Below, in pieces: positions 32,862 through 47,062 of a stretch of 47,975 bases of DNA. The notes under the pieces were generated by a model. The model was given only the letters and a program-made list of their open reading frames with translations, was not told where the DNA came from and did no database searches. Within the stretch, counting starts at the first letter, position 1, and each line of letters begins with the position of its first letter. The position numbers were made by a program, and so were the translations under genes. The stretch is from a virus, in IMG/VR virus record IMGVR_UViG_3300029787_000087, positions 1 to 47,975 of that record; one strand, written 5' to 3'.

Positions 32862-33158
32862 CTATTTTTTCTTTGAATTTTTTAGGACAGAGCCACCTTT
32901 TGATTTTCTTATCATAGATCCGCCTTTAGATTTTTTAATCATACTTCCCCCTTTTGATCTTTTCATAAGATTACCGCCTTTCGACATTTTTCTTATGGAA
33001 CCACCTTTTGACTTTTTCATAAGATTGCCACCTTTAGACATCTTACGAATAGAACCGCCTTTAGATTTTTTAAGCATACTACCGCCTTTAGACATCTTTC
33101 TTATAGAGCCGCCTTTAGACTTTTTTATTACTGAAAATCCTTTTGTATTTTTATACAT
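32862..33158 (-). CDS. basic protein of nine 9-residue SKGG repeats
   Basis: 98 residues that are almost entirely repeats. After MYKNTKGFSVIKK come nine 9-residue units starting at residues 14, 23, 32, 41, 50, 59, 68, 77 and 86, each of the form S-K-G-G-(S/N)-(I/M/L/V)-x-K/R-x, then SKKK. There are no acidic residues and about 35 Lys/Arg, so the net charge is strongly positive. It probably binds nucleic acid, polyanion or membrane; compaction of packaged DNA, an injected peptide or a membrane disruptor are options. The G-G core matches a motif in other proteins of this late region. It has GAGG before its ATG. Confidence 0.7.
   Translation of the reverse strand: MYKNTKGFSVIKKSKGGSIRKMSKGGSMLKKSKGGSIRKMSKGGNLMKKSKGGSIRKMSKGGNLMKRSKGGSMIKKSKGGSMIRKSKGGSVLKNSKKK
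32877..33119 (-). repeat. 27-bp tandem repeats encoding SKGG units
   Basis: Nine tandem 27-bp units of the repeat protein gene. The Lys-Gly-Gly codons differ between copies (several combinations of GGC and GGT are used), so the amino-acid pattern, not the DNA, has been conserved. Confidence 0.8.
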
Positions 33159-33167
33159 AATAACCTC

Positions 33168-33617
33168 TTACGAGATGGTAGTTACTTTTTTTCTATCAGG
33201 CATAATGTTACCACAACCTTTAGCAACGAAACCACCGTTTTTCATTTGTAGTTTATTTTGTTTGGCCATTGATTTTTCTATAGCCAAACCCCTCTTTTTT
33301 TCATAACTACTTAAAGAACCGTCTTTATCTAGATCGGCTTTACTTGGATTGTTAAGTTTCACAAAACCTCCGTTACTTAATTTATTTGATACATTTATCG
33401 GTTTACCTTTTCTATCTTTGTTAGGGTCTTTTGCTCTTTTTCTAGCAACTAACTTAGCTCTTTCTGCTTTAGATAAACTTTCAGCCTTACTTCTTGGCAA
33501 ACATTTAGGTTTGCCTTCAGCTTCTTTTCTACTACCGCAAGATCCCAAAATAGCACCATCTGATCCTATTCTAACCCAATCTTGATCTAACCAACTTTGT
33601 AGTTGTCCTTTTGCCAT
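33168..33617 (-). CDS. basic protein with EF-hand loop and two NGGFV motifs, 149 aa
   Basis: Starts MAKGQLQSWLDQDWVRIGSD and continues GSCGSRKEAEGKPKCLPRSK with KAESLSKAERAKLVARKRAK, a pattern I recall in small marine-phage proteins of unknown function. SNGGFVKL (81-88) and KNGGFVAKG (126-134) are copies of the glycine-pair motif. Between them DLDKDGSLSSYE (95-106) fits all positions of a canonical calcium-binding EF-hand loop (D-x-D-x-D-G-x-L-x-x-x-E). The protein is basic, with Cys27, Cys39 and Cys135. It could be a calcium-sensitive virion or injected protein. Context: four small basic proteins in a row. Confidence 0.6.
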   Translation of the reverse strand: MAKGQLQSWLDQDWVRIGSDGAILGSCGSRKEAEGKPKCLPRSKAESLSKAERAKLVARKRAKDPNKDRKGKPINVSNKLSNGGFVKLNNPSKADLDKDGSLSSYEKKRGLAIEKSMAKQNKLQMKNGGFVAKGCGNIMPDRKKVTTIS

Positions 33618-33618
33618 T

Positions 33619-33828
33619 TTATCTTGTTTTTTCTTTTAGAACTGCACCTTGCCCTCTAATAGAAACAAAGCCACCATTTCTTTTTTTTGATTTTTTAGCA
33701 TAATTTGGGTCTTTACAATATTTAGAAGCAGCTAAATTTGCATAAGCTGAAGGGTAAACATCAAATGTTCTTTTTGCCCAAGCTTTACCTTCAGGACATA
33801 TTTTGCCTTTTGATTTAGGTTTAGCCAT
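33619..33828 (-). CDS. small basic protein with GKICPEGKAWAKRTFDVYPS pattern, 69 aa
   Basis: Conserved-looking small phage protein: KGKICPEGKAWAKRTFDVYP at residues 7-26 and YANLAASKYCKDPNYAKKSK at 29-48, ending KRNGGFVSIRGQGAVLKEKT. Such proteins, which I associate with DUF5872, are found in marine phages with unknown role. It carries Cys11 and Cys38, is Lys/Arg-rich, and has the NGGFV motif at 51-55, as in its neighbour. It lies one base from the 149-residue gene, so the two are co-translated. Confidence 0.6.
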   Translation of the reverse strand: MAKPKSKGKICPEGKAWAKRTFDVYPSAYANLAASKYCKDPNYAKKSKKRNGGFVSIRGQGAVLKEKTR

Positions 33829-34107
33829 TTAACAATCCCAATCCTTTCTAGCCCAATAATTAGCACTACATCTATCGGTAGTACCTTTCATGCCTGCGCT
33901 TCTAGCACAGTAAGATTTTTTTCTAGCTTTATCATTTTTGTGCATACCTAAGTTTGCGTCTCCAAAAGTTATTCTTTTTACTCTTTTACTTTCGCTGCTG
34001 CATCCCATAACAAAAACTACTTTACGTTTTTTGCCATAACCAGGCTCTCCAGCTCGGAGAGCTCTTGGTTTATTGAGAGTTACTTTTTTACCTTTGTATT
34101 CAGCCAT
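33829..34107 (-). CDS. Cys/Lys-rich small protein, 92 aa
   Basis: N-terminus MAEYKGKKVTLNKPRALRAG, a strand KRKVVFVMGCSSESKRVKRI, then ITFGDANLGMHKNDKARKKS and YCARSAGMKGTTDRCSANYW ending ARKDWDC. It has four cysteines (36, 67, 80 and the C-terminal 92) and is very basic. The -FGD-x-N-x-x-M-x-x-x-x-x-x-ARKK(S)-(F/Y)-x-AR- pattern recurs in phage proteins as I recall, and its terminal Cys-rich part may bind a metal. Packed between the structural gene 34107-34508 and the DUF5872-like gene. Function unknown. Confidence 0.6.
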   Translation of the reverse strand: MAEYKGKKVTLNKPRALRAGEPGYGKKRKVVFVMGCSSESKRVKRITFGDANLGMHKNDKARKKSYCARSAGMKGTTDRCSANYWARKDWDC

Positions 34108-34508
34108 TAAAAGTTTTTATTCAAAACTAAGATAACTGAATAGGCATCACCACTAGAATGTCCAATTGTAGTAAAGTCTATATCTCCAGTTACTCCTGAA
34201 CCAGCATTATTAGGTATGCCAGAAAACTGGTCAAAATACTCATCACCAGAACTATCAGGAGCTAAGGTTACTGCTAAAACATTTGTGGTTGCATCAAACT
34301 CAATATCAACACCCATGCCTCTACAAAACCAGTGTATTCTAGCTATAGATACACTTGTGCAAGCTTTACCTTCATTGTTAGAAGACAGTGCTGATACATC
34401 AACCTTTTTAACAGAAGATTCCCCTGTTCCATCAGATTCATTAGTAAACTTTAATACAGCTACTCTTTGACCATCCTGAATAGTTTGTGAGGTTACTGTG
34501 TCTGCCAT
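34107..34508 (-). CDS. structural protein candidate, 133 aa
   Basis: Ser/Thr/Asp-rich beta protein: QTIQDGQRVAVLKFTNESDG (residues 8-27), then KVDVSALSSNNEGKACTSVS and DIEFDATTNVLAVTLAPDSS, ending GDAYSVILVLNKNF. The motif DG-x-R-x-A-V-L-K-(F/L)-T-N-x-S-D-G-(T/S)-G-E is recognisable from small marine-phage virion proteins. It is probably a head or tail accessory protein. Its ATG has AAGGAG upstream and its end overlaps the Cys/Lys-rich gene's ATG. Confidence 0.6.
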   Translation of the reverse strand: MADTVTSQTIQDGQRVAVLKFTNESDGTGESSVKKVDVSALSSNNEGKACTSVSIARIHWFCRGMGVDIEFDATTNVLAVTLAPDSSGDEYFDQFSGIPNNAGSGVTGDIDFTTIGHSSGDAYSVILVLNKNF

Positions 34509-34518
34509 AATTTACTCC

Positions 34519-35067
34519 TTACGCTATTTGAACGTATTCAATAATAAACGTAAATTCACCAGCAGTTGTTGCATCTACTGTGTTAGTAATATTACAGAAA
34601 ATTGTTCTTTCAGCAGATGTGTACTGAACGGAAGCTGGTGCTGTAGTTGCGTCTTGTGTTTGTAGCACAAGTGAAGTTACAGTAACATTTCCAACCACTA
34701 CCGTAGTACCACCATCTAATATTTCATCAGTTTGTGCTGCAACAATTTGAGCTCCTGAACTGGTTGTACCTACTTCATAACCAATATCACCAGTACCTAT
34801 AACAGGTGCTGTATTACAAAATATTTTTATATCAGTAATGATTGTGTTAGCTGGTTGCGTAAACTGACCAATAGTAGGTGAATCACCCGCAGTTGTGTTT
34901 ACAGTTACTCCAGTTGCAAAACCAACGTGCTTTACAAATTTATTTGTAACAATACCCGTTGATGCAATATTTACAACATCAGTTTCTGCTCCTGTTGTTG
35001 CATTTTTTGATATGACCTTAAACCCATTTTCGGATCTGACTGGTCCACTAAAAGTCGAATTTGCCAT
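34519..35067 (-). CDS. structural protein candidate, 182 aa
   Basis: Starts MANSTFSGPVRSENGFKVIS, the S-G-P-V-R-S-E-x-G-F beginning seen in phage head decoration or fibre proteins, then a Thr/Val/Gly-rich beta body (VGFATGVTVNTTAGDSPTIG; TIITDIKIFCNTAPVIGTGD) ending TFIIEYVQIA. Soluble, two Cys. Its leader at 35070-35129 contains two hairpins, one masking part of the ribosome site, so its translation may be regulated. A capsid decoration or trimeric surface protein is likely, by context after the capsid and DUF1289 genes. Confidence 0.6.
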   Translation of the reverse strand: MANSTFSGPVRSENGFKVISKNATTGAETDVVNIASTGIVTNKFVKHVGFATGVTVNTTAGDSPTIGQFTQPANTIITDIKIFCNTAPVIGTGDIGYEVGTTSSGAQIVAAQTDEILDGGTTVVVGNVTVTSLVLQTQDATTAPASVQYTSAERTIFCNITNTVDATTAGEFTFIIEYVQIA

Positions 35068-35069
35068 AA

Positions 35070-35129
35070 TTTCCTCCGTTGGAAATCGTCTTTATCATCT
35101 CGGCTTGTCTGCTAGGTCAGTTGATAAAG
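35070..35129 (-). promoter_or_regulatory. structured leader of the 182-aa structural gene
   Basis: On the coding strand, CTTTATCA pairs with TGATAAAG (35122-35129 with 35090-35097, 24-base loop). A second hairpin, TTTCC-AACGGA-GGAAA (35085 to 35070), holds part of the AACGGAGGAAA ribosome-binding site three bases before the ATG. It may delay or reduce translation; it is weak (five pairs), so only a possibility. Confidence 0.35.
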
Positions 35130-35160
35130 ATATTAAAATTACCCTAGAATTAAAATATTA

Positions 35161-35577
35161 CTATACTGCTTCTTGCGTAGCAATAGGTAGTTTTTCTTTT
35201 GCTTTAAGAACTAGTTGATGGGCCTCAAAAAGAGCTTCATAAGACTCTTTAATAGCTGGATCTTTACCATAAAGGTTAGTTAAATCTTCTGAAATCATTT
35301 CAATTAAGCATCTAGTCGTTAGTAGTCTTCCCCTCATATCTTCAAGTTTATTTTCCATAGTCATTTCCCTGTATCTGCGTTTTTGTTTGATGTCAAATTT
35401 AAGCCAATTTTGAATATTTATTAGCTTTTTTTGAGTTTCTGTATATTGACACCAATCACGAATCTGTTCAACAGATCTTCCGCATCCTTGGCAAATTTTA
35501 TCAAATGGAATTACCGAAGTGGTACAACTACCTATACAAGGCGTTTCAGATAGACTATTTGGTTCGTGTAACCTCAT
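35161..35577 (-). CDS. DUF1289-like zinc/iron-binding N-domain fused to helical tail
   Basis: The N-terminal 55 residues fit DUF1289: PCIGSCTTSVIPFDKICQGC (13-32) then GRSVEQIRDWCQYTETQKKL (33-52), that is C-x3-C-(10)-C-x2-CGR followed by the W-x-x-(M/Y)-(T/S)-(D/E) part. Four cysteines (14, 18, 29, 32) could bind a metal or iron-sulphur. In bacteria this domain is a short stand-alone protein. Here it is followed by a mainly helical, charged C-terminal 85 residues with RYREMTMENKLEDMRGRLLT. It lies just downstream of the capsid gene's terminator. Function unknown, perhaps assembly or host interaction. Confidence 0.65.
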   Translation of the reverse strand: MRLHEPNSLSETPCIGSCTTSVIPFDKICQGCGRSVEQIRDWCQYTETQKKLINIQNWLKFDIKQKRRYREMTMENKLEDMRGRLLTTRCLIEMISEDLTNLYGKDPAIKESYEALFEAHQLVLKAKEKLPIATQEAV

Positions 35578-35623
35578 ATTTATATCCTTAGTTACAGGCA
35601 GTATATTATAAGTTACAAATAAA

Positions 35624-35649
35624 AGAAAGGGGTCCGAAGACCCCTTTCT
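35624..35649 (-). terminator. strong intrinsic terminator after the capsid gene
   Basis: On the transcribed (minus) strand an 11-bp perfect stem AGAAAGGGGTC / GACCCCTTTCT is closed by a C-UUCG-G tetraloop and followed by TTTTATTTG. It lies 13 bases beyond the capsid gene stop. It should cut down transcription of genes beyond, making the capsid the most abundant distal product of its unit. Downstream genes then need read-through or another promoter. Confidence 0.9.
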
Positions 35650-35662
35650 GAGATGTTATGAA

Positions 35663-36568
35663 TTAAGCTCCCTGAGAACCGTCAACACATCTCCAGTTAG
35701 AGAATCCAAATGAATATCTCTCTCTGGCTTTGTATCTCATGTTTCCAGTGTCAAAATCCCCTTCTAAAGAAGTTTGCATAGGTGATCTAACAAACATTTT
35801 AAAACCATCAGGTACATCAGTTTTTAAGAAGTAAGCATCCGAATCAGTTAAGTAGTGATTTACTACATAACCTTGAGGAAGCATACCTTGATTTCTAACT
35901 GAGTTGATGTCGTTGTCAGAAGTTCCTACTCTACCTGGAGTATTCATTAATCTATCAGCCACAAATTGAAGTTGTGGTGGAACGATTAATTTAGTTCCTT
36001 GTAAAGCAATTGCAAGTCCACGATCATCTGTCTGAGTAGAGATTCTAATTAGTGCATCTTCTAATGAAGTTTCATTAAGATCTGCAAAAGTAGTAGCTCT
36101 ATTCTGAGCAGTTCCTGAAGATAATGGGTGATCAGTAGCGATTAAAGGCTTACCATCTCCACCATTAAAGCTTGTAGAAAAAGCGTTATTTAGAATATTA
36201 GCCGCTTTGATCTGCTTAGTGTTAGCCATACTTCTAGCAAGTGCTTTAGTATATCTAGAACCAAGACGGTCATAGAGGTTATCTTCTACTGCTTCTTCTG
36301 TTAAAGCAAAAGCAAGAGCTACGGTTTCGTGTTCATAACGAGCCGTAAATCCTTCTGTTGCATTATCAAAGCTTACTCCAGCTCCTTCAGCTTTCGTAGG
36401 TGCATTACCAAAACCAACGATCATTACTTCTTCTTCAAAAGCTCTATCTGAAGTTTGCTCTTCAAAGATTTCTGCGTGTTCGTTGTCATATCTGCTGTAC
36501 TCCATACCAAAAAGGGCATTTAGTCCAGGCTCTAACTCTTTAGCGAGTTGCGCTCTATTTATAGCCAT
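35663..36568 (-). CDS. major capsid protein, Mu gpT/HK97-fold type
   Basis: Main shell protein. The length (301 aa) and sequence fit Mu gpT-like capsid proteins: MAINRAQLAKELEPGLNALF, then the dense glutamate stretch EIFEEQTSDRAFEEEVMIVG, HETVALAFALTEEAVEDNLY, a central KPLIATDHPLSSGTAQNRAT and a C-terminal ARERYSFGFSNWRCVDGSQG. No long N-terminal scaffold domain is seen; a separate scaffold gene lies at 37680-38615. A strong terminator follows. Upstream genes 36571-37140 and 37174-37674 are likely decoration and head-associated proteins. Confidence 0.88.
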   Translation of the reverse strand: MAINRAQLAKELEPGLNALFGMEYSRYDNEHAEIFEEQTSDRAFEEEVMIVGFGNAPTKAEGAGVSFDNATEGFTARYEHETVALAFALTEEAVEDNLYDRLGSRYTKALARSMANTKQIKAANILNNAFSTSFNGGDGKPLIATDHPLSSGTAQNRATTFADLNETSLEDALIRISTQTDDRGLAIALQGTKLIVPPQLQFVADRLMNTPGRVGTSDNDINSVRNQGMLPQGYVVNHYLTDSDAYFLKTDVPDGFKMFVRSPMQTSLEGDFDTGNMRYKARERYSFGFSNWRCVDGSQGA

Positions 36569-36570
36569 GA

Positions 36571-37140
36571 TTAAACTCCTGTAGTAGTAGTGTATTGGTG
36601 TTCGTTAATTTTAACGATCACGTTTACGTTAGCAGAACCCCTTTCGTTGTTTTCAGGATCTCTAGAAAAGCCTATGATTCTGAAATTTTCAGCAGCAGAT
36701 GTTGCTCCTGAATCAACTTCAGCTTTTGATTGGCCAGTAATAGTAGAACCAGCTGTGTAAGCTAAATCTACATTAGCGCCAACAGCAGCTAAAGCAAGGG
36801 AACCAGTACATTGTACTTCGTAGAGATTGTTTGGATCATCTTCTACAAAAGCAACTATTGTACTTGTTGAAGTTTGACCAGTCGGGAAAAACGATTTAAA
36901 AGTCACGTTACCCGCAGAGTCGCTAAATTGACACCCTCTAAAAATTCCTAAGATTGGTTGCTCACTTGCCGCATCATGGACAAGAATAGTACCAGCCGCA
37001 GTCATTCTTACAGGATCTCCTGAGAAAATACTTCCAGTTGCGCCTGAAGCAATTTCGTATTCGGTAGTTCCGTTGTTTTGAACACTCGAACCTAATTTGC
37101 CTACAAGCTTAAAACCGAAAGGTGCATCTTTATTAGCCAT
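36571..37140 (-). CDS. head-associated protein, 189 aa
   Basis: Starts MANKDAPFGFKLVGKLGSSV, a beginning I know from proteins encoded just before marine-phage capsid genes. It then carries a beta-rich Thr/Ser/Ala sequence (TGSIFSGDPVRMTAAGTILV; PILGIFRGCQFSDSAGNVTF; TSTIVAFVEDDPNNLYEVQC) and ends NVIVKINEHQYTTTTGV. This fits a capsid decoration or auxiliary head protein. It precedes the capsid gene by two bases, implying matched production. Confidence 0.65.
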   Translation of the reverse strand: MANKDAPFGFKLVGKLGSSVQNNGTTEYEIASGATGSIFSGDPVRMTAAGTILVHDAASEQPILGIFRGCQFSDSAGNVTFKSFFPTGQTSTSTIVAFVEDDPNNLYEVQCTGSLALAAVGANVDLAYTAGSTITGQSKAEVDSGATSAAENFRIIGFSRDPENNERGSANVNVIVKINEHQYTTTTGV

Positions 37141-37173
37141 TTTATTTCCTTTATTTTAAGTTTGTATTAAGTG

Positions 37174-37674
37174 TCACTCCCTTTTGCCACCGCCAAAAGT
37201 TACGCTTGAAGTCCTTCTCGGTCTTTCGATTGGAGAACGACTATCAGATTCCTTCATAAGATCATTATCGACAGCAGATTGCATTTCTGCAGCTCTTTTA
37301 TTGAAATAATCATTTCTTTCCTGTCTTGTCTCTAAAGGTATCTTAGCTAACAACAACCCTCCTACTGATACAACACCTGCGTGTTTTCCGTCTTGTATAG
37401 TTGGTAACTGAAAATCTCCTATCTCTTCTGAACGAACAAGCTCAAAGCCTTCTCTCAGACGAGACATTATATTTTTGTTATCAGGACTATTTAAGACCTC
37501 TGCACGAATCCATCTGTAAGCATAGCCTTCAGGTGGTTCTGGCGTTTCTAACATTGTTGGTGGTTGCCAAGGTTTGCGAGATTCTTGGGACTCTCGAGTG
37601 TCCGCAGAACGATCAGTTCTGTTACTAAAATTCTGTTCAACATCCTTCTCTATTTTTGTTTTTTTATTTGTCAT
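37174..37674 (-). CDS. head-region protein, 166 aa
   Basis: A charged, polar N-terminus (TRSADTRES... type, Lys/Arg/Asp-rich), then EPPEGYAYRWIRAEVLNSPD (residues 47-66) and NKNIMSRLREGFELVRSEEI, with a conserved-looking GVVSVGGLLLAKIPLETRQE and a final Ser/Arg-rich SPIERPRRTSSVTFGGGK. The P-E-G-Y-x-Y-R-W-(I/V)-R-x-E block is frequent in marine-phage proteins between scaffold and capsid genes, as far as I recall. Function unknown, possibly a head-completion or minor capsid factor. Located between scaffold and decoration genes. Confidence 0.6.
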   Translation of the reverse strand: MTNKKTKIEKDVEQNFSNRTDRSADTRESQESRKPWQPPTMLETPEPPEGYAYRWIRAEVLNSPDNKNIMSRLREGFELVRSEEIGDFQLPTIQDGKHAGVVSVGGLLLAKIPLETRQERNDYFNKRAAEMQSAVDNDLMKESDSRSPIERPRRTSSVTFGGGKRE

Positions 37675-37679
37675 TTAGT

Positions 37680-38615
37680 TTACCTTTTTACAAATTTTGC
37701 GTACTCAGTAAGCGGTACATTTAATTTTTTAGCCATTTGGACTTCTGATGGAGTCAACTTTACTTGTCTCTTACCAGATGTGCTTGAGTCCGCTCTAGCT
37801 GCTGATGCCACTCGCTGTTGTGGTTTTTCTGCTACATTTGAACTATCTTCAAACTTATGCGGAAACTCCACTCTCATACGTTTATCAACCTCAGTATAAT
37901 ACTCATCTGTGCGAGGATCAAACCCTTCTTGCTTTAATTGTTTATCAATTGTAAAAGCACCCATAGTCATTATCTGATCATTTCCAAACCATTCGTTCTT
38001 ATCTGCCCAAGCTTGGGTTTTAGGATCTATTTGGTTTGGTGGTGGATTAGTCGCATTATTCAAAGTATTTTGAAAATTTTGTTCTTCTTTTTGAGCATTT
38101 TGATACTCAAGTTCTTTTTTCTGCGTATCTATTTTATTCTCTTCTACAGCTATTTTTGCCAAAATGTCAGTAGCTTTTGCAACTTTTTCAAAATCTTGAT
38201 TAGCTTGTGCTTCTGTCAAAGCTTTAGTAGCTTGTACTCTTTGAGAACTTAATCGGCTTTCTGCTTCAGTTAAATAATTTTTTTCTGTAACTTCTTTAGA
38301 ACCTCTTAATTTTTTATTTTCTTCTTGAATTTGTTGAGCATAATTCAAAGCAGAATCCTTTGCTCTTTCTTCTTCACGAAGTTTTCTAGTTAAATTATTT
38401 ATTCTTTTTTGAACTTTAGAAGAATACTCCTCTAACTCTTCTTCTTCGCCAACAGATTCTGTCGCAGTTTCTGTTGTTTCTGTTGTTTCTGTTTCTTCTG
38501 TATTAACAGATTCAGCATTATCAACTTCTTCTGGTGTAGGTGTTGGTGTATCAAGTTCTACTATCTCAACTCCCTCTACCTCTTCTACTATCGACTCTTT
38601 TGCTTCTTCACTCAT
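37680..38615 (-). CDS. capsid scaffold protein
   Basis: 311 residues with the classic scaffold look. A very acidic Glu/Thr-rich N-terminal 70 residues are followed by a long coiled-coil region (about 70-190; KVQKRINNLTRKLREEERAK, QEENKKLRGSKEVTEKNYLT) and a basic C-terminal tail that would bind capsid protein (KRQVKLTPSEVQMAKKLNVP and on to KFVKR). It is adjacent to the capsid cluster. No protease is seen nearby, so scaffold exit rather than cleavage is expected. Confidence 0.8.
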   Translation of the reverse strand: MSEEAKESIVEEVEGVEIVELDTPTPTPEEVDNAESVNTEETETTETTETATESVGEEEELEEYSSKVQKRINNLTRKLREEERAKDSALNYAQQIQEENKKLRGSKEVTEKNYLTEAESRLSSQRVQATKALTEAQANQDFEKVAKATDILAKIAVEENKIDTQKKELEYQNAQKEEQNFQNTLNNATNPPPNQIDPKTQAWADKNEWFGNDQIMTMGAFTIDKQLKQEGFDPRTDEYYTEVDKRMRVEFPHKFEDSSNVAEKPQQRVASAARADSSTSGKRQVKLTPSEVQMAKKLNVPLTEYAKFVKR

Positions 38616-38623
38616 TTTTGCTC

Positions 38624-39106
38624 CTATACTGCAATAATATCGTTTGGATCTTTTATGGTGGCTAAGACTTCATCATCATTTATTAGACGACACTCTGCAT
38701 CATCTCCTAATCTGAATCTTGCACCAGCATATCTGCCAATCAATACCCATTGTTTTTCTTGACACCAAGGGGTGTCGCCAAACTTTTTAAAATCGTTATA
38801 ACAACCGTTACCCATCTTAACAACATAGGCACAAACGGAAGCTAAAGTTTCTCTTTCTATATGACTTTTTACTAAATGAATACCACCAGAAGATACTCCA
38901 GTACCTGCATAAGGTAAAACTAATATTCTATAACCTTGTGGTTGTGGCATACGATCAATTAAACTTTGATCTAAAAGTGTGGGGTCTAAAACTCTTTTTT
39001 CTTCTGGCACATAAGTTTCATCCAAAGCCTCGCCAGTTTCTTTATTTTGTTCTTCTATTTCTTTGGCTATGTGGTCAGGGACCACTACTTGATTCTTCGT
39101 CTTCAT
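38624..39106 (-). CDS. GroES-like co-chaperonin (Cpn10)
   Basis: Phage-encoded partner for the host GroEL chaperonin. The C-terminal 105 residues fit Cpn10: GYRILVLPYAGTG (about 57-69), a Gly/Ser-rich mobile-loop region VSSGGIHLVK that in GroES contacts GroEL, SVCAYVVKMGNGCYND, VLIGRYAGARFRLGDDAECR and a final DDEVLATIKDPNDIIA. An unrelated acidic N-terminal extension of about 50 residues precedes it. T4 gp31 is the classic example, needed to fold its capsid protein. Position next to scaffold and capsid genes fits that. I use ATG 39106; a TTG one codon earlier is also possible. Confidence 0.8.
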   Translation of the reverse strand: MKTKNQVVVPDHIAKEIEEQNKETGEALDETYVPEEKRVLDPTLLDQSLIDRMPQPQGYRILVLPYAGTGVSSGGIHLVKSHIERETLASVCAYVVKMGNGCYNDFKKFGDTPWCQEKQWVLIGRYAGARFRLGDDAECRLINDDEVLATIKDPNDIIAV

Positions 39107-39287
39107 CAATATATTTCCCTAGCAGTTCTCTAAATATATTTTCTGCGTCAGCCAGAGAACTGTAACGGCCTCGCAAAAATTCGTATTGATCCATGCCCTT
39201 TACTCCAGCCAGCATTTGATCAACTACGTCCTGTCTTCTATCTTCAAGAGCTTTTATATATTTGTCTCTTAAATTGATAGCTGACAT
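39075..39287 (-). CDS. small helical protein, 70 aa
   Basis: Family not recognised. Helical and charged: MSAINLRDKYIKALEDRRQD, then QMLAGVKGMDQYEFLRGRYS and an acidic end EDEESSSGP. Such small helical proteins beside portal or scaffold genes are common. Its end overlaps the co-chaperonin start by 32 bases and its ATG overlaps the stop of the 53-residue ORF. Possibly a portal or head-assembly helper. Confidence 0.55.
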   Translation of the reverse strand: MSAINLRDKYIKALEDRRQDVVDQMLAGVKGMDQYEFLRGRYSSLADAENIFRELLGKYIDEDEESSSGP

Positions 39288-39448
39288 TAACTAACGCCAG
39301 AAAACTTAGTACCGAACTCAGCGATACCTACTCCTCTCGCTTTTCCTTTGCCCATACCTGGAGTGGGTTTAGTATTTGCTGCAACGCTTTGTACGTCTTT
39401 AGTTTTTACTGTACCTTTTCCTTGATAAGTGAATTTGTTTTTATTCAT
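39287..39448 (-). CDS. small basic protein, 53 aa
   Basis: ATG 39446-39448 to TAA 39287-39289, the stop overlapping the next ATG (TAATG). Sequence MNKNKFTYQGKGTVKTKDVQ, then TPGMGKGKARGVGIAEFGTK and FSGVS: basic, Gly-rich, probably disordered. Conserved-looking GKGKARG segment may bind nucleic acid or assist assembly. Small size but good coupling supports it as a gene. Confidence 0.5.
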   Translation of the reverse strand: MNKNKFTYQGKGTVKTKDVQSVAANTKPTPGMGKGKARGVGIAEFGTKFSGVS

Positions 39449-39484
39449 GTGAGTATAATCGACTAAAATTAAAAAATTTGCAAG

Positions 39485-39628
39485 TTATTTTGCTGGTACT
39501 ATTCTTAAACCTTTAACACCATTAGCTGTTTCTCTTCTAACTTTGTCTGTAGCAACCTCTAAAGTTGCGTTAGTCATAATAGGAAATGGGTAATTTGGTC
39601 TGATTACATTGTATTTTTTTTCATTCAT
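39485..39628 (-). CDS. small protein, 47 aa
   Basis: ATG 39626-39628 to TAA 39485-39487. Sequence begins MNEKKYNVIRPNYPFPIMTN and ends RETANGVKGLRIVPAK; short, basic, without a membrane span. It is one of three micro-genes filling the 530 bases between the portal gene and the 70-residue gene. Function unknown. Confidence 0.45.
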   Translation of the reverse strand: MNEKKYNVIRPNYPFPIMTNATLEVATDKVRRETANGVKGLRIVPAK

Positions 39629-39630
39629 AG

Positions 39631-39786
39631 TTAATTACCTGAGTCGTACTCGGTTAGAGCTTTCCAATAATGTTTTATCTTTTTCCATAAATATTTATAA
39701 ATAACTTGAATCCCCTCTGGATTTGAGTTTTCCATAATTAGTATAAATATACACAAAACTATTGTTAAAATTAAAATAGTATTCAT
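39631..39786 (-). CDS. small membrane protein, 51 aa
   Basis: ATG 39784-39786 to TAA 39631-39633. The N-terminus is a membrane span (TILILTIVLCIFILIMEN, residues 3-20), followed by a soluble tail with aromatic residues (VIYKYLWKKIKHYWKALTEY). TTCAAGGAAGAA upstream on the coding strand gives an AGGA ribosome site. A single-span late protein near the portal gene could act in membrane association of assembly or in lysis. Function unknown. Confidence 0.5.
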   Translation of the reverse strand: MNTILILTIVLCIFILIMENSNPEGIQVIYKYLWKKIKHYWKALTEYDSGN

Positions 39787-39816
39787 TTCTTCCTTGAATC
39801 ACTTTGAGAATATCCA

Positions 39817-42294
39817 TTAGTTTTTCTTCATTAAATCTAACATTTTTAATTCTCTTTGTTGTTTTAATCTTTGTTGAGTTGTGTCGTCTTTCATTTCAGC
39901 AATATCTTCTTGAGTGTTAATGCGTTCTTGATCTAATCTATTTTTAGCCATAGAGTCATTTCTTCTACGACTTTGATCAGCAACAAATTGTTGTTGTTCT
40001 TGTGCTAATTCTTGACCTTTTAGAGCCAACTCTTGTTTTCTGATAGTCACTAAAGGATCTTCGTCTGAAGGCGGTCCAATTTTTTCAGTAAACTCAACAA
40101 TCAATTGACTAAGTATAGGTGCAGAAAACTGTGCTAACAAGTCTTTAGCTTGCATATTCAAACCTACGCCTTCTTGACCACCCACTTGTTGTGCCTGTTG
40201 ACTTAATTGTTCAAATTGTGTTCTAACCTCAGGTGGCATTTGTTCTAAAGCTAACATATCTGCTTTCATTTGTAAGTGTTCCATAATATGAGCATGAATA
40301 GTAGCTTGCACCTGCAAATTGCTTTGTACAGGCGGAGTGTTTAATAAGGCCATATGTATAGCTATGTGTGCGTCATGATTTTGTTGAGGAAAAGCTTTAG
40401 CAGCTTGAGCCATAATCAAAGTATTATTTTCTAAACCAGCTTCTATTGGCATAGGTTCTGAAGGTGGTGGTGGATTTAATAAACCGTCTATATTATCAAC
40501 CCCAATTGCTGCGTACATTCTACGGTAAGCTTCATAAACTCCACCTTGTCCATGAACTTCTGGATTAGATTGGACTAATTGCATCATTTCTTGAGCCATA
40601 GCTATTCTTTGTGAAGTGCTAAAAATATCAGGATTTGAAATCGGGATTATATCTACTCGATCATCAAAATCATTTAATTTAATTTGCATATTACCGTTAG
40701 CTGTCATGTATGGATATTCATTTGGTAAATATTCTTTAAATACCGTAGCTAATAATTTAAATTCTTTTTTTTGTGCTGCGTGTAATCTTTTGTGTATAGC
40801 TGATAAAACTTTAGTAGATCTTTCTAACAAAGCTAAAGTGGTGCCTACAGGAGCATTAGGATTGCCTTGACCAGTATTTATCTCAGCAATAGACGCAAAC
40901 TTTTGCCCTGATTCAACTAAGATACCTAATAAATTTAATAACGTACCACTCGGTTCTTTAAATGGTAACGGTTGAATTGATTCTCTTAATGAACCACCAG
41001 GGGCATCCACATCTCTAAATTCTCCAGGCTGAATAGGAGAGTCTTCGTCTCGTATTCTAATCCCTCTTGTCTTGAATCCAGCAGGTAGATTAGCAAGAGT
41101 TCCTGCGTCAATTAATTGCCTTAGTATTGATGTAGATGCCTTGGAAAGACCTCCGATCATATGTGTTAAACCAAACCCATAAAAACCTAATCCTGGTAAA
41201 AATTTAAAATGTACAAAATAATCTATTTTATTTCTTAACGGATCATTCTCTAAAAAATTTCTTCTTATTGATAAAACATTTTGACTATTAACATCAATAG
41301 TAACTATGTAAGGTAATTTAACACCAGAAGGCATACCGTCTGCTGACATATCCTCAAAGCCTGGTATGTTTAAATTACAATGTACTTCGTAAAGTAAATT
41401 AACTTCACTAGAATCATACTCTGGTTCTAGACCAGATAACTTTTCTATTTCTTCTTTGACACCTGAATAATCAGTAGCTTCTTCACCACCGTATAAATCT
41501 ATTTTTTTGTAAAATCCTTGTTGTTGTAATTTACGGACTTCATTCTCAGGCATTTTTATTATGTTAGTAATTCTAGGGCAGTTCTCTAAATCGGTTGTGT
41601 AGTACGGCACAATTAAATCTTCTGGTGCAACAAATTTAGAAACGGCTCTACCTAAAACTTCGTCATAATATATTTTTTTAAAAGCAGAACCAGCTAACGG
41701 CAAATAAAATAATAACTGATCTAACTCTTCGTCATACTCTTCCATAACATGAACTATTTGATAGTTCATAAATTCTTTAACTCGTTGTGCTTGTTCTTCT
41801 ACGGTTGAATCATATTGACCAACTACTTGAGTTTTTATAGGACCGCCTGCTGGTAACAATTCTTTGTAAGCTTGTGCTTGGAAAGTGGTTACGGCTTCGC
41901 CTAATAAAGGATGAATAACTCCTGAAGCACCAGCAAAAGGTTCGGATCTTTCGCTATCAAACTTCATACCTAAATATTTAAGTCCGTCTATATAAGTTCT
42001 TTCCCAATCTTCTCTAGAAGCTTTATCTTTTTCAATACCATCAATAAGCTGGTTGCTTATATTCATAAGGTCTGATTCTTCTATAAGTTCTGCTAAGTTT
42101 TGATTAAAATCAGACTCAACCATATCAGGCTGACCTGTATCTAAAACAGCACTACCATCATCTTGTATGATAAAACCACCTTCGCCAGATTGCTGTACGC
42201 CTTCTATAACTTGCAGTAGTTCGTCTTCTTCAACTGACTTTGGTTTATCAGCGTTTAAAGTATTTGGTGCAATTGGTTGGTTTTCTATAGCCAT
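39817..42294 (-). CDS. portal protein
   Basis: 825 residues, the size of P22-like portals. Evidence is the position directly after TerL with a small gene between, length, and the expected order of regions. An N-terminal helical domain contains SREDWERTYIDGLKYLGMKF and SGVIHPLLGEAVTTFQAQAY. The stem region LIDAGTLANLPAGFKTRGIR and RDVDAPGGSLRESIQPLPFK is followed by AEINTGQGNPNAPVGTTLAL and STKVLSAIHKRLHAAQKKEF. The C-terminus is a Gln/Met-rich helical barrel (LKQQRELKMLDLMKKN). It forms the dodecameric ring through which DNA enters and leaves the head. The N-terminal 40 residues are disordered. Confidence 0.88.
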   Translation of the reverse strand: MAIENQPIAPNTLNADKPKSVEEDELLQVIEGVQQSGEGGFIIQDDGSAVLDTGQPDMVESDFNQNLAELIEESDLMNISNQLIDGIEKDKASREDWERTYIDGLKYLGMKFDSERSEPFAGASGVIHPLLGEAVTTFQAQAYKELLPAGGPIKTQVVGQYDSTVEEQAQRVKEFMNYQIVHVMEEYDEELDQLLFYLPLAGSAFKKIYYDEVLGRAVSKFVAPEDLIVPYYTTDLENCPRITNIIKMPENEVRKLQQQGFYKKIDLYGGEEATDYSGVKEEIEKLSGLEPEYDSSEVNLLYEVHCNLNIPGFEDMSADGMPSGVKLPYIVTIDVNSQNVLSIRRNFLENDPLRNKIDYFVHFKFLPGLGFYGFGLTHMIGGLSKASTSILRQLIDAGTLANLPAGFKTRGIRIRDEDSPIQPGEFRDVDAPGGSLRESIQPLPFKEPSGTLLNLLGILVESGQKFASIAEINTGQGNPNAPVGTTLALLERSTKVLSAIHKRLHAAQKKEFKLLATVFKEYLPNEYPYMTANGNMQIKLNDFDDRVDIIPISNPDIFSTSQRIAMAQEMMQLVQSNPEVHGQGGVYEAYRRMYAAIGVDNIDGLLNPPPPSEPMPIEAGLENNTLIMAQAAKAFPQQNHDAHIAIHMALLNTPPVQSNLQVQATIHAHIMEHLQMKADMLALEQMPPEVRTQFEQLSQQAQQVGGQEGVGLNMQAKDLLAQFSAPILSQLIVEFTEKIGPPSDEDPLVTIRKQELALKGQELAQEQQQFVADQSRRRNDSMAKNRLDQERINTQEDIAEMKDDTTQQRLKQQRELKMLDLMKKN

Positions 42295-42296
42295 TT

Positions 42297-42467
42297 TTAG
42301 TGCAAGATTCTATCTTCTGCTAACATACCGTTTGAACTTAGTTCGCCAACTATTTCTAAATTAAAATAATCTGCTTGCTCCAAAGCGTTTTCCCAAGAGT
42401 GTGCCAAAATACAAGGACCCTCTTTAACGATACCGTCTTCTTCATATTGTGTTATGTAAATACCCAT
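42297..42467 (-). CDS. small protein between terminase and portal, 56 aa
   Basis: ATG 42465-42467 overlaps the terminase stop (TAATG); TAA at 42297-42299 is three bases before the portal gene. Sequence MGIYITQYEEDGIVKEGPCI then LAHSWENALEQADYFNLEIV and ending LSSNGMLAEDRILH. Acidic, soluble. No family recognised. It might assist terminase-portal coupling, purely by position. Confidence 0.55.
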   Translation of the reverse strand: MGIYITQYEEDGIVKEGPCILAHSWENALEQADYFNLEIVGELSSNGMLAEDRILH

Positions 42468-43927
42468 TAGTAATAAACTCTATTTATAATTGGTTTTTCA
42501 TCATCTTCATAATCGTCATTTAAAGAAAGTAATCCACCTTCTCTAAATCTCATTAAAGCTTGAGTCATAGTATCACATAAATCATCATTTGCACCAAAGG
42601 GAAAAGACGCACATTCTTCTATCATTTCTTCAGAAAAAGCTCTGATAGGTGCATAAACTAAACCACTCTCGAATATAGGTGCGACTGAATGCATACGAGT
42701 TGTTTTATCGTGACCTCTAGTTGGCGAGTAATTAACTACAGGTATGCCAAGTCTTCTGAGTTCATGAGTCAAAGGTGTACCCGAAGCTTTTGCTTCTATT
42801 AAGACCATATCTGGTTCCCAATATTTATATTCTTCCATAGCCACTCTTTTAAGTTCTGGAAAATCATAACGACCTTTTTGACAATCTAATAATATTATTG
42901 AATCAGGTGCATCTTCATTTGGGCGAAAAACACCCCAAGTTGAGATAGCAGAATAGTCGGCATTTTCTTTCTTAGAAAAAGCCGTATCATAACTTTGAAT
43001 TATATAGTTTACTGCTGGCAAAGAATCATGCTCCCACTTTTGCCACCACTCTCGTTTGATTATTGAACCTTCTTCAGCAGTAGGAGTTTGCATCCATTGG
43101 GCATTCCATTTCATAGCGGGTAGGGATGCTTTTACTTTTAACAATTCTTCTTTACCCCAAAATTCTTCCCACAAAGGTTTTTCTGTTTCGGGAAAAATAG
43201 CTGGAAACTCGACTATATCCCATTGATCAGCCAGCGGTTCTTTTTGAGCATTTAGTAATTTAGCGGTCAAATCTAAATTACTCCATCTGGTCATGACTAA
43301 AACTATAGCTCCACCTGGTTGTAAACGCTGTCTTGGTCCAGAGGTGTACCATTCCCAACAAGACTCCATAGCAGTCGGACTTAAAGCATCTTGTTCTGAA
43401 TGCGGATCATCAATAATCATGAGATCTGCACCACGACCAGTAATCGCACCCCCAACACCAGCAGCAAAATATTCGCCATTTTTATTGGTTTCCCAACGAC
43501 CAGCAGATTTACTATCAGACGATAAGGTTACTTCAGGAAATATTCTTTGATATTCTTGAGTGTCCATCATGTTTCTGACTTTACGACCAAAACGTACTGC
43601 TAGTTCACCAGTATGCGTGGCTTGCATAATTTTACGATTGGGTGTCTTGCCCATAATCCAAGCTGGAAAATAAGTAGAGGCAAATTCAGATTTAGTGTGT
43701 CTAGGTGGCATATTAACAATCAAACGATTGATAGTGCCATTTGCAATACCTTCTAATTTTTCAGCAAAAATTTTATGGTGACGGCCACAAATAAAACCAT
43801 CCCACATATGTTCAACAAAATTAAGAAAATTATCCTGACAACCTTTTTGTTTTTTAATTAAATCTAAGCGTTCTTTTAAAGCCAACGCTTCTTTTATTTC
43901 TGAATCAGATAAATGACCAAGACTCAT
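42467..43927 (-). CDS. terL: terminase large subunit
   Basis: Packaging motor: an ATPase and nuclease that cuts and pumps DNA into the head. Walker A-like MPPRHTKS (residues 73-80), Walker B LMIIDDP (169-175), coupling motif VMTRW (211-215). C-terminal RNase H-fold nuclease: YIIQSYDTAFS with Asp314, DMVLIEAKASG with Glu378 and GANDDLCDT with Asp449/Asp452. Length 486 aa is normal. No terminase small subunit is recognisable nearby; one of the small genes upstream (for example 46736-47062) might serve, unproven. It begins in overlap with the upstream large gene. Confidence 0.93.
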   Translation of the reverse strand: MSLGHLSDSEIKEALALKERLDLIKKQKGCQDNFLNFVEHMWDGFICGRHHKIFAEKLEGIANGTINRLIVNMPPRHTKSEFASTYFPAWIMGKTPNRKIMQATHTGELAVRFGRKVRNMMDTQEYQRIFPEVTLSSDSKSAGRWETNKNGEYFAAGVGGAITGRGADLMIIDDPHSEQDALSPTAMESCWEWYTSGPRQRLQPGGAIVLVMTRWSNLDLTAKLLNAQKEPLADQWDIVEFPAIFPETEKPLWEEFWGKEELLKVKASLPAMKWNAQWMQTPTAEEGSIIKREWWQKWEHDSLPAVNYIIQSYDTAFSKKENADYSAISTWGVFRPNEDAPDSIILLDCQKGRYDFPELKRVAMEEYKYWEPDMVLIEAKASGTPLTHELRRLGIPVVNYSPTRGHDKTTRMHSVAPIFESGLVYAPIRAFSEEMIEECASFPFGANDDLCDTMTQALMRFREGGLLSLNDDYEDDEKPIINRVYY

Positions 43928-45876
43928 ACAATTTTTAATTTACCAGCTTTGGTGTAATCATAAGGTATTTGTAAAGCGGAAAGTTTTCTTTCTATTTCAT
44001 CAAGACCATCAAAGCCCATACCTTTGCTAATTCTTGGATCAACAGCACCACCAGATCTAAAGGCACTTATACCTTTCTCTGCTATAGCTTTTCGCAATTC
44101 ATCATCTATTTTTATAGTAAAACCAACATCTAACTTTTTTTTGATTAAATCAACCTCATTTCTTGAAAAATTATCAAAAAAACGAGGATCAACTATAATC
44201 TTTTTTTCCATACCAAGTTCTTTTAAAACTTTTGTCACTTGTGCTGGAATTTTTTTATCATAAAGGTCTTTTATGTATTCAAGTCCTTCTGAAGAATCTC
44301 TTTTCATAACGCCAGGAGAAAAACTAAAAACTAATTCAGACACATTAGGATCAGCAGCTGCAGCAGCAATATTCTCTCTGACGGTTGGCACTTCTACCCG
44401 AGCAATATCTTTATCGTCAAATGGACCTCTGCGTAATTTATCACTACCTCTAAAAGATACTGGTGCTTTTAAAATTTCTTTACCATCTTTACCTTTAAAG
44501 ACTGGATTATTAATATCAGCGTTATCTTTTAAAAATTTACTAAATGATTGTTCGCCAGGTACGGTACTCAAAGGTCTAGTCGGATCATAAAATAATTTTT
44601 TATAGTAAGCATCTATATCATCTGCTAATTCTGGAAAATTACGTTTACTTGGCATTTTGTATTCAGAAACAAATTTTGCGTTGTCTTTATAGGACTTAAC
44701 AATTTTTGCTATATCTTTGTCTAGGTCTTTTATCTCGCCTAATAATTTTTTTGCTTCAGGTGTGTTTTTACTAAGTTTTTCATATGCAGCTTTTTTTACG
44801 GCTTGTTGTGATTTTAAATAGGCAGCTTGAACAGATTCTTGTTTTATGTTTTTTGAAATTTTTTGGAGGGCTTTTAGTTCCTCAAGTGTAGAAAAAGGTT
44901 TTTTTGTTGATTTAACATAATTACTTAACATTTTAGAATACTCAGATTGTACTCTAGCAACAACTCTTGTTTTGCCAGTAGTACCTAACAAATCAATGAC
45001 TCCATCAAAAACCAAAGCATTATCGTAGTTAGGATAGTGGTTAGTTGCACTAGCTCCTTTTTTTCTTAAATTTTCTAAATTTCTAACCTGATAAACTTTT
45101 TGAGTTTCAAAACTAAAGTCACCTCTTCTATTTAATTCATCAGCAGCTTCTTCAGTAAGTTCAGGCATATATCTATCTGACTTTTTAACATTTTTGAAAT
45201 TAAACAAACCTTTTTGATTTTTTTTAACATATTGATCAAACACCTCTAAAGATATTTCTCTATCACCAAATTGTTTTTTTAGTTGTGGATGTAATCGACC
45301 AAATTCATCTGTAATTCTTAAAGCTCGTAATTCGCCTTCGGTCACTTTGCTACCTTTACCAACTTTTTTTAACAAAGCCACATACTTTCCAGCAGTAGCT
45401 CGTTCTGGTAGTTTGTTGCCAGCTTGATCAGTTATAAATTTTCTAGTGGGCGATATTAAATTTGATGTGTTTGGATAAGCTAAATCATCTAAATCTTTTT
45501 TAATAAAATCTGCGAATTTAGCTGGAATAGCTTCTTCAGTTGCTTCTATTAATTTAGGTTCAATTTTTGCTAAAGGTTGAACAGCTTTACGAGCTCGTAT
45601 GAATCTTAAAATTGGCACAAAACTAGCAATACCAAGAGCAGTCAAAGCACCATAACCTAATCCACCTAAGAGATCTCCTTCTTGAACTTTTTCGCTGGCT
45701 CTCGTACCGAACTCGCCAACTTCGTAAGCGGTAAGTGCGTCTCCAATACCAGGGGTAAGACTAATTGCTATTTGATCGACAATAGGCAGTTCTTCAAACT
45801 TACGATAAGCATCACGCACATTACCTTTGCCTATTAAATCTTGTATATCTGCGGTTAGTTCAGCTCTACTAGCCAT
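43924..45876 (-). CDS. large polyvalent-type phage protein, 650 aa
   Basis: A multi-part protein. Residues 30-95 contain hydrophobic Gly-rich segments (AISLTPGIGDALTAYEVGEF; GGLGYGALTALGIASFVPIL). Residues 160-225 resemble a domain found in large phage polyproteins: AGKYVALLKKVGKGSKVTEG with ELRALRITDEFG and SLEVFDQYVKKN. Then a second recurring pattern: VVARVQSEYSK (305-315), RENIAAAAADPNVSELVFSF and YDKKIPAQVTKVLKELG, which recalls the EIQSD-containing domain of such proteins. The C-terminus has FRSGGAVDPR. Likely a virion protein delivered to the host or an internal head protein; the activity is unknown. Confidence 0.55.
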   Translation of the reverse strand: MASRAELTADIQDLIGKGNVRDAYRKFEELPIVDQIAISLTPGIGDALTAYEVGEFGTRASEKVQEGDLLGGLGYGALTALGIASFVPILRFIRARKAVQPLAKIEPKLIEATEEAIPAKFADFIKKDLDDLAYPNTSNLISPTRKFITDQAGNKLPERATAGKYVALLKKVGKGSKVTEGELRALRITDEFGRLHPQLKKQFGDREISLEVFDQYVKKNQKGLFNFKNVKKSDRYMPELTEEAADELNRRGDFSFETQKVYQVRNLENLRKKGASATNHYPNYDNALVFDGVIDLLGTTGKTRVVARVQSEYSKMLSNYVKSTKKPFSTLEELKALQKISKNIKQESVQAAYLKSQQAVKKAAYEKLSKNTPEAKKLLGEIKDLDKDIAKIVKSYKDNAKFVSEYKMPSKRNFPELADDIDAYYKKLFYDPTRPLSTVPGEQSFSKFLKDNADINNPVFKGKDGKEILKAPVSFRGSDKLRRGPFDDKDIARVEVPTVRENIAAAAADPNVSELVFSFSPGVMKRDSSEGLEYIKDLYDKKIPAQVTKVLKELGMEKKIIVDPRFFDNFSRNEVDLIKKKLDVGFTIKIDDELRKAIAEKGISAFRSGGAVDPRISKGMGFDGLDEIERKLSALQIPYDYTKAGKLKIV

Positions 45877-45879
45877 TTC

Positions 45880-46734
45880 TTACCCCAAAAGTTCGGCTAA
45901 CATTTGTTGGCGTAAAGCTCGTCTTTCTAATTCGGTTAGGTAGTCGGCTAATCTGATATCGCTACCACCACTATAATTTATAGTTGGTGACGGCATCATA
46001 CTAGCAATACCCATATTTTGTTGACCAGCTGTTTGTTGTGGTTGAGGTGGTTGCGGATAAACTATTTCAGGTCTAGGGTTGAGTATGTCGTAAATATCTA
46101 AACCAGTATTAATAACATCTACGATTTTACCGTAATCTATATTTATGGGTTCAGGTCTTCTTGCGACAACAATCATATCTTCGTCAGCATTATCTGGATC
46201 ATACCCACCTGTATTAGCTGCTAAACTGGTAAAGAAGCCACCTACGCCACCACCAAAAGAAAATCTTGGAATAATTTTACTGCCGTCTCCAGCGGTACCC
46301 ATAAGTTTTTCAGCCGTATCTAAGCTAGTTAGTTGTTCTCTACGATCTCCTAACTTTTTAACTATAGCGTTACTTAACTCTAATTCATCTGCTTCTAATT
46401 TTTTTATTTGATCAGCAGAATTATTTTTTGCAAAAATATTTTTTCTATTAACAGCTCGAGCTTTATTTAATCTAGTTAGTTCTTGGCTTATATCATCAAT
46501 ACCCATACGGTCTATAGTACGCAAATAATCAATTGCAGTTTTACCACCTTTAAAGACTCTAGCCATAGGGAACATACTAACTAAATCCAAGCCGATACTG
46601 GCATAAGTAGCTTCAGCTGGATTAGTTACAAACTCTGGCAAAATAAAATCTCTAGCCACGCCCAAAGCCGTTATGCCCTGGTCATAAATATTTTTTAAAT
46701 TTGAATTTGAAGCTGTAGGATCCGCTACTCGCAT
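45880..46734 (-). CDS. hypothetical virion-region protein, 284 aa
   Basis: No family recognised. An N-terminal helical and hydrophobic part (TYASIGLDLVSMFPMARVFK, residues 43-62) is followed by a charged coiled-coil-like stretch (NNSADQIKKLEADELELSNA), FSFGGGVGGFFTSL at 158-171, a Tyr/Asp-rich segment and a Pro/Gln-rich part (RPEIVYPQPPQPQQTAGQQN) before a helical end. It sits next to the polyvalent-type gene and shares a hydrophobic segment in the same relative place as that protein's N-terminus, so both may be delivered into the host. Function unknown. Confidence 0.5.
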   Translation of the reverse strand: MRVADPTASNSNLKNIYDQGITALGVARDFILPEFVTNPAEATYASIGLDLVSMFPMARVFKGGKTAIDYLRTIDRMGIDDISQELTRLNKARAVNRKNIFAKNNSADQIKKLEADELELSNAIVKKLGDRREQLTSLDTAEKLMGTAGDGSKIIPRFSFGGGVGGFFTSLAANTGGYDPDNADEDMIVVARRPEPINIDYGKIVDVINTGLDIYDILNPRPEIVYPQPPQPQQTAGQQNMGIASMMPSPTINYSGGSDIRLADYLTELERRALRQQMLAELLG

Positions 46735-46735
46735 T

Positions 46736-47062
46736 TTACTCTATATCAGCTAATAATTTATCTATTGTACCGCCTTCTTTCATGCCCATAGAGTCCCCCA
46801 TAACTTTACCCATAATCTCAGGATTACCAAAACTTTGTTCAGCTAAAGCAAGATCTTGTAAAGAAATACCAAATTGTTTTAAAAAAGCATCTATTTCAGC
46901 TTCAGACATACCAGAAGCCATCATTTCTTGCACTAAAGCACGAATTTCAGCCAACGCAGCTTGCGCTTCAGATACGTCTGCTTGAGAAACCGTTTCAGTA
47001 TCAGTAGCAATCATGTTGGAGCCTCCGCCCATCATGTTTTCTAACTCATTCATTTCTTCCAT
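46736..47062 (-). CDS. first late-operon gene, 108 aa, with EGG motif
   Basis: Acidic helical protein: Met/Glu/Gly-rich start MEEMNELENMMGGGSNMIAT, then an Ala/Glu helix (VSEAQAALAEIRALVQEMMA) and MSEAEIDAFLKQFGISLQDL, ending MKEGGTIDKLLADIE. TAGGAG lies seven bases before the ATG. It is the first gene behind the putative late promoter at 47176-47205. Possibilities include a terminase small subunit substitute or a late regulator; nothing in the sequence decides. Confidence 0.55.
   Translation of the reverse strand: MEEMNELENMMGGGSNMIATDTETVSQADVSEAQAALAEIRALVQEMMASGMSEAEIDAFLKQFGISLQDLALAEQSFGNPEIMGKVMGDSMGMKEGGTIDKLLADIE

Follow-up and report, generated by a model that had tools for sequence, protein, structure and literature searches.

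The closest working analogies to the element described here are the scaffold-dependent recruitment of ejection proteins in phage P22, the capsid targeting sequence (CTS) of phage T4 and the cargo-loading peptides of encapsulins. The T4 CTS is N-terminal and is removed by the gp21 protease, and encapsulin cargo-loading peptides are C-terminal, one per cargo, with a consensus different from the one given below. The P22 ejection proteins enter procapsids only with scaffold, by way of their N-terminal parts (PMC8402733). P22 gp7 loses 20 residues, the mature protein beginning KGGKG, and this removal is nearly dispensable (PMC8402733).

The window, that is, the whole stretch of DNA analysed here, is a virus contig of 47,975 bases whose minus-strand late genes span 47062 to 9410. 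Its terminase (56-61% identical), portal (about 46-48%), capsid (66-68%) and stabilisation protein (32-34%) have homologues of the HTVC023P/HTVC027P type, and by this homology the window was assigned to the HTVC023P-type podoviruses. The matching phages of this type were Pelagibacter phages HTVC023P and HTVC027P, phage 023Pt_psg01 and lake phage DSL-LC04; Roseobacter phages CRP-901/902 were more distant relatives for the same four proteins. The window capsid protein also matched Phage_capsid_4 and Mu gpT. The 'DNA transfer protein' and 'tail tape measure protein' of DSL-LC04 occupy the positions of window genes 9410-12637 and 15838-16887, respectively. None of the window proteins scanned matched PHROG ejection-protein profiles, and the late proteins scanned included no recognisable maturation protease.

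Between the portal and capsid genes, the late operon encodes a GroES-like co-chaperonin (38624-39109, loop SSGGIHL), and such a gene was found at the same place in the isolate relatives compared. The product of 32187-32861 matched PHROG 3704 (annotated ferredoxin) and HTVC023P gp44 (record name PurM); its 77% identity to a copy in an HMO-2011-type contig suggests transfer between phage groups. Gene 25315-28062 encodes a 915-aa probable tail fibre with many NTTGxNNTAVGxxAL-type repeats and an end region resembling an intramolecular chaperone (SDKRDKTDVEPL). The product of 23293-24195 is probably exported and contains a long low-complexity tract of Asn and Thr; its second half shares 50% identity with an HTVC023P protein.

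A seven-residue glycine-pair motif in late proteins

An earlier note on this DNA had proposed that an (N/S/K/E)GG motif recurs across late proteins otherwise unlike each other. All the peptides it quoted were present: the coordinates of MFANGGP (14562-14582) and of FANGGE and RNGGES (16078-16125) were exact, the nine SKGG copies were confirmed, and SNGGFV, KNGGFV, RNGGFV and SFGGGVGG were found in the genes named for them. FRSGGAV and MKEGGTI were also there, but each is one codon longer than the coordinates quoted for it. The copies and associated segments are listed here, "strict" referring to the pattern defined below.

14562-14582, minus strand: MFANGGP, in 12642-14603 (653 aa), whose residues 12-13 are the GG
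16003-16074, minus strand: GPGTGTSDDIPAMLSDGEFVMTAA segment, the conserved tape measure C-terminal segment, from profiles and tape-measure matches
16078-16098, minus strand: MRNGGES, the second copy in 15838-16887, directly before the GPGTGTSDDIPAMLSDGEFV segment
16105-16125, minus strand: FANGGEV, strict motif, residues 255-261 of the tape-measure-like protein 15838-16887, predicted with low confidence at 225-282
29069-29089, minus strand: YTSGGSA, strict motif, in 28835-29260, whose orthologues have YTSGGFALT
32886-33122, minus strand: nine SKGG[SN] copies, one every nine residues, in 32862-33158 (98 aa, basic)
33225-33245, minus strand: MKNGGFV, strict motif, in 33168-33617 near its C-terminus, followed by AKGCGNIMPDRKKVTTIS; weak modelled hairpin, pLDDT about 50
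33300-33335, minus strand: EF-hand-like loop DLDKDGSLSSYE of 33168-33617, with an NGGFV copy on either side
33360-33380, minus strand: LSNGGFV, in 33168-33617 just past the conserved core domain; pLDDT under 50
33664-33684, minus strand: KRNGGFV, in 33619-33828
44041-44061, minus strand: FRSGGAV, in 43924-45876 (650 aa), close to its C-terminus
46243-46263, minus strand: FSFGGGV, in 45880-46734
46763-46783, minus strand: MKEGGTI, at the C-terminus of 46736-47062, followed by DKLLADIE

As literally defined, the motif was too loose. With the SKGG array excluded, (N/S/K/E)GG occurred 22 times in the window late proteins versus 20.1 expected from shuffles (p = 0.36), and NGG alone 9 times versus 4.9 (p = 0.06). 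ORFs called in 246 loci of relatives (viral contigs and five isolates) were grouped into 498 protein families, and the residues flanking every GG in these families were compared with shuffles as an unbiased scan. MxxGGxV, YxxGGxV and FxxGGxV ranked highest in enrichment, occurring in 24, 21 and 23 families versus 2.5, 2.5 and 3.4 in shuffles, respectively. The refined motif is [FYM]xxGGx[VAIM], seven residues with F, Y or M at -3 and V, A, I or M at +3. Once redefined in this way, the claim of recurrence on unlike late proteins stood: the strict motif was present 7 times in the window late proteins versus 1.47 expected (p = 0.003, the floor of 300 shuffles).

When all registers were compared in a grid, [FYM] at -3 with [VAIM] at +3 was the sole register standing out, every other one lying at 0.8-1.7 times expectation; it occurred in 102 of the 498 families versus 33.3 expected, a count possibly inflated by hidden homology, given the very fast evolution of ejection genes and the likelihood that several N-terminal cases represent syntenic orthologues. 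Counts made within single genomes are free of this problem and are the safer evidence. The reversed motif was not enriched (31 families versus 34.6 expected), and the effect was gone (0.6-1.3 times) when GG was swapped for fourteen other dipeptides. These three controls exclude composition and low complexity as the cause. The glycine-pair motif is real and specific, and it is shared by many otherwise unrelated late proteins. It has apparently not been described before; a limited search of the open-licence literature found no published description of it and no virion proteomics of HTVC023P-type or HMO-2011-type phages.

Both Gly codons and the -3 codon of the motif wobble almost freely, indicating that selection acts on the protein, and a DNA-level signal was rejected on this ground. 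The nine SKGG copies differ at synonymous sites, so it is the peptide that is kept. The only codon bias was an avoidance of GGA at the first Gly codon in the motif genes of relatives (11% versus 26% background), which plausibly averts a ribosome-binding-like GGAGG. Lysine was enriched at -2, -1, +4 and +5, and D/E was also frequent at -1; K+R made up 13.0% of residues near the motif versus 12.4% in the host protein (host families >150 residues). In the predicted structures of 33168-33617 and the tape-measure-like 15838-16887, both models being of modest quality, the motif copies lay in low-confidence tails or linkers (pLDDT <50 or about 50), with both GG copies of the latter protein under 50. 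A fold search with the 33168-33617 model gave no match at E<=0.001.

Proteins, genes and phages that carry the motif

Gene 12642-14603 lies next to 9410-12637, which encodes a large protein, and corresponds in position to the neighbour of the DSL-LC04 'DNA transfer protein'. Its MFANGGPS misses the strict pattern, with S at +3; relatives have MAIKDRRLFANGG, MNFLNRKMFQAGG, MKTLRRPMFRKGG and others at equal distance from the start. It represents a recurrent N-terminal context, MxxLxRRMFxxGG and similar, with GG at residues 12-13 in an ejection-module gene. Orthologues retain the motif, as a shared tag would require: relatives of 12642-14603 keep MxxxxRR[ML]FxNGG, and across 30 relatives of 33168-33617, some as little as 30% identical, the first GG (residues 83-84) is >90% conserved, with the tail around it replaced by unrelated segments. 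In 15838-16887, G258 and G268 were invariant in 25 relatives.

The instances in the earlier note were mixed, one lying in a known tape-measure C-terminal segment, and the nine-copy SKGG array being a separate basic repeat protein. The GPGTGTSDDIPAMLSDGEFVMTAA segment matched PHROG tape-measure profiles, the JBD30 tape measure 8rk3 (weakly) and Gordonia phage tape measures, and among the window motif hosts GPGTxTSDxIPAxLSxGEFV was found only in 15838-16887. This podovirus ejection-module protein bears the C-terminal segment of siphophage tape measure proteins. In 28835-29260, the strict match YTSGGSA, which the earlier note had not listed, is probably incidental and just ordinary sequence of a conserved virion protein.

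At the C-terminus the recurrent context was GGPVxIDxMLAxL, with the window form MKEGGTIDKLLADIE in 46736-47062; relatives of this protein end in FKLGGPVEIDRMLAEL and YNTGGPVSIDNMLAAL. No relatives of 45880-46734 were found. Small proteins near the portal had recurrent GGF[VI]A[KR]GCGxVMxxRRKxT or GGxAAxRGxxFxGxF tails. Small basic proteins adjoining the portal gene (33168-33828 and many related loci) also share a second recurrent C-terminal tail, RGCGxVMxxRRKxT or RGxGAAxRGxxFxGxF. The other recurrent contexts were basic tandem arrays, the place directly before the tape-measure GPGTGTSDDIPAMLSDGEFV segment, and the flanks of an EF-hand-like loop. Such loops (FPDLTGDGKVTxxDILxGRGV or DLNKDGKLSxYE) numbered 38 versus 2.2 in shuffles, 19 of them within 60 residues of a GG motif. 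The EF-hand/dockerin-like loop, often FPDLTGDGKVTQADILKGRGV, appears in unrelated late proteins (33300-33335; L221, L192, L132, L213, L168, L155 and others) at a fixed distance from GG motifs, and in the phage collection its full form was seen only in HTVC027P.

Among individual phages, the strict motif was in excess in the late proteins of HTVC027P (8 versus 1.67 expected), DSL-LC04 (10 versus 2.87) and 023Pt (14 versus 3.30). HTVC023P late proteins were at chance (3 versus 3.1), although variant GG motifs occur in them, and so were CRP-901, CRP-902, Pag-Yong1, Caulobacter RW, HTVC010P, HTVC019P and P22 as a whole (1 versus 1.6). An independent HMO-2011-type set had the motif in 30 of 155 families (7.7 expected), and an HTVC010P-type set in 3 of 82 (2.0 expected). 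Carrying the motif search and the late-versus-early comparison over to relatives gave far stronger support for recurrence on late and not early proteins than the window did. The window early proteins held no strict copy, but the expectation was only 0.21 and the window alone has no power to show the absence from early genes that the earlier note had supposed. That absence was supported when five genomes (the window, HTVC027P, DSL-LC04, 023Pt and HTVC023P) were pooled: 1 early copy versus 2.1 expected, and 42 late copies versus 12.5 (conditional p about 0.009).

Motif hosts cluster in the ejection module and among the genes flanking the portal on both sides. With the portal as anchor, enrichment was 4-18 times over a stretch that starts about four genes ahead of it and stops seven genes past it, the portal itself being at 2.4 times, and no motif was found in genes 7-13 positions upstream. 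With the stabilisation protein as anchor, the motif was strong at +2 to +7 (tape-measure and ejection genes), at 2-6 times in ejection genes; it was weak or absent in the 1-6 genes before, and the stabilisation protein itself was at 0.5 times. Copies were 183 internal, 83 C-terminal and 56 N-terminal, and the terminal preference, measured with a looser pattern, was mild (29/157 N-terminal and 21/157 C-terminal versus 14% of random internal windows). The placement of the host genes around the portal and in the ejection module fits a tag for head incorporation or delivery, as had been suggested. CRP-901/902 share the capsid, portal and scaffold order without the motif, which is thus unnecessary for building such heads. 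In a presence/absence search for a partner gene, GEFV-segment proteins had by far the most HMO-2011-group matches (57, 66) and none in the motif-negative set; they were rejected since Caulobacter RW has the segment too and too few genomes were compared.

Possible roles of the motif

A register-exact, position-independent and sometimes repeated motif, in flexible tails of non-homologous hosts at one genomic address, has the signature of a short docking motif, and the precedent of the P22 ejection proteins therefore favours docking to a head-assembly component. We tentatively propose that in HTVC023P-type and HMO-2011-type podoviruses many unrelated late proteins use [FYM]xxGGx[VAIM], a short linear motif acting at the protein level, for such docking. 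The aromatic residue or Met at -3 and the beta-branched or small residue at +3, symmetric about GG, would form one face of a tight hairpin, and this face would add to a common groove on the assembly component, for which the scaffold (37680-38615) and the inner surface of the portal vertex are the most plausible candidates. Through docking, the procapsid would take up ejection proteins as well as small, basic internal ones, and tandem copies would give avidity. GroEL binding, by analogy with the GroES mobile loop (TKGGIVL), was rejected since the +2 residue is hydrophobic in only 31% of instances; it is also disfavoured by motif-negative CRP-901/902 and Caulobacter RW, which encode GroES too. 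The C-terminal RFREGG of TerL was set aside as evidence for portal docking since its GG is not kept in HTVC023P or DSL-LC04.

A wider form of the proposal, of which we are doubtful, is that the motif may be a general address tag of two abundant ocean podovirus groups, whose tagged late proteins would be recruited to one dedicated head site and then ejected, cargo being gained or swapped by adding the tag, sometimes with the EF-hand-like module.

The chief rival, which we regard as somewhat unlikely, is a self-contained tight beta-hairpin that caps or spaces disordered linkers and was spread by duplication and recombination, with no common partner. F/Y/M and V/A symmetric around GG suit a hairpin, and MKNGGFV was modelled as a weak one; some copies have a fixed place before the tape-measure GEFV segment, and EF-hand-like loops with flanking GG motifs and alternative tails are shuffled among unrelated genes. 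However, a generic hairpin should not be restricted to portal-adjacent and ejection-module genes, nor should it be missing from CRP-901/902, HTVC010P or early genes.

That the motif marks basic tails binding and neutralising packaged DNA is improbable. The SKGG array, the KGMAKGGAVKKKG proteins and the RRKxT tails are strongly basic, in line with the lysine enrichment around the motif, but the flanks are no more basic than the host proteins, D/E is frequent at -1, and charge cannot account for the fixed -3 and +3 residues. Proteolytic processing at GG during head maturation would recall the trimming of P22 gp7 to its KGGKG end, and the constant 12-13 residue position of N-terminal copies in several families would suit it. 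We consider it very unlikely: the late proteins scanned yielded no recognisable maturation protease, internal copies would cut the protein, extreme C-terminal copies would lose almost nothing, and the P22 trimming is itself nearly dispensable (PMC8402733). Least credible is that the motif arose by chance, through biased composition or as the incidental translation of a DNA-level signal, a reading already contradicted by the register grid, the reversed-motif and other-dipeptide controls and the free wobble codons, the nine tandem copies included, even though the literal (N/S/K/E)GG is at chance in the window and GG-rich low-complexity proteins exist.

With this register-exact motif, virion cargo and ejection proteins can be sought in unannotated genomes by one common feature, and their selection becomes a rule open to direct testing. 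Should the motif prove to be the docking tag proposed above, it could also be used to carry reporter proteins into phage heads in laboratory work.

Comparison with known systems

The T4 CTS is likewise a short peptide, found on internal head proteins that otherwise differ, and its presumed role is to direct them into the prohead. Unlike the CTS, the phage motif is N-terminal, internal or C-terminal, most copies being internal or C-terminal, and often repeated, and no protease like gp21 was recognised in the late proteins scanned. Encapsulin cargo-loading peptides are also short motifs, which dock cargo inside an HK97-fold shell; docking by the present motif is a proposal made by analogy. The tape measure C-terminal segment (GPGTGTSDSIPAxLSDGEFV) occurs in 15838-16887 after FANGG and MRNGG, whereas the other motif-bearing window proteins are without it. 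Like some of the motif hosts, P22 gp7, gp16 and gp20 are ejection-module proteins; gp7 has KGGKGG near its start, and gp20 has NSGGFL.
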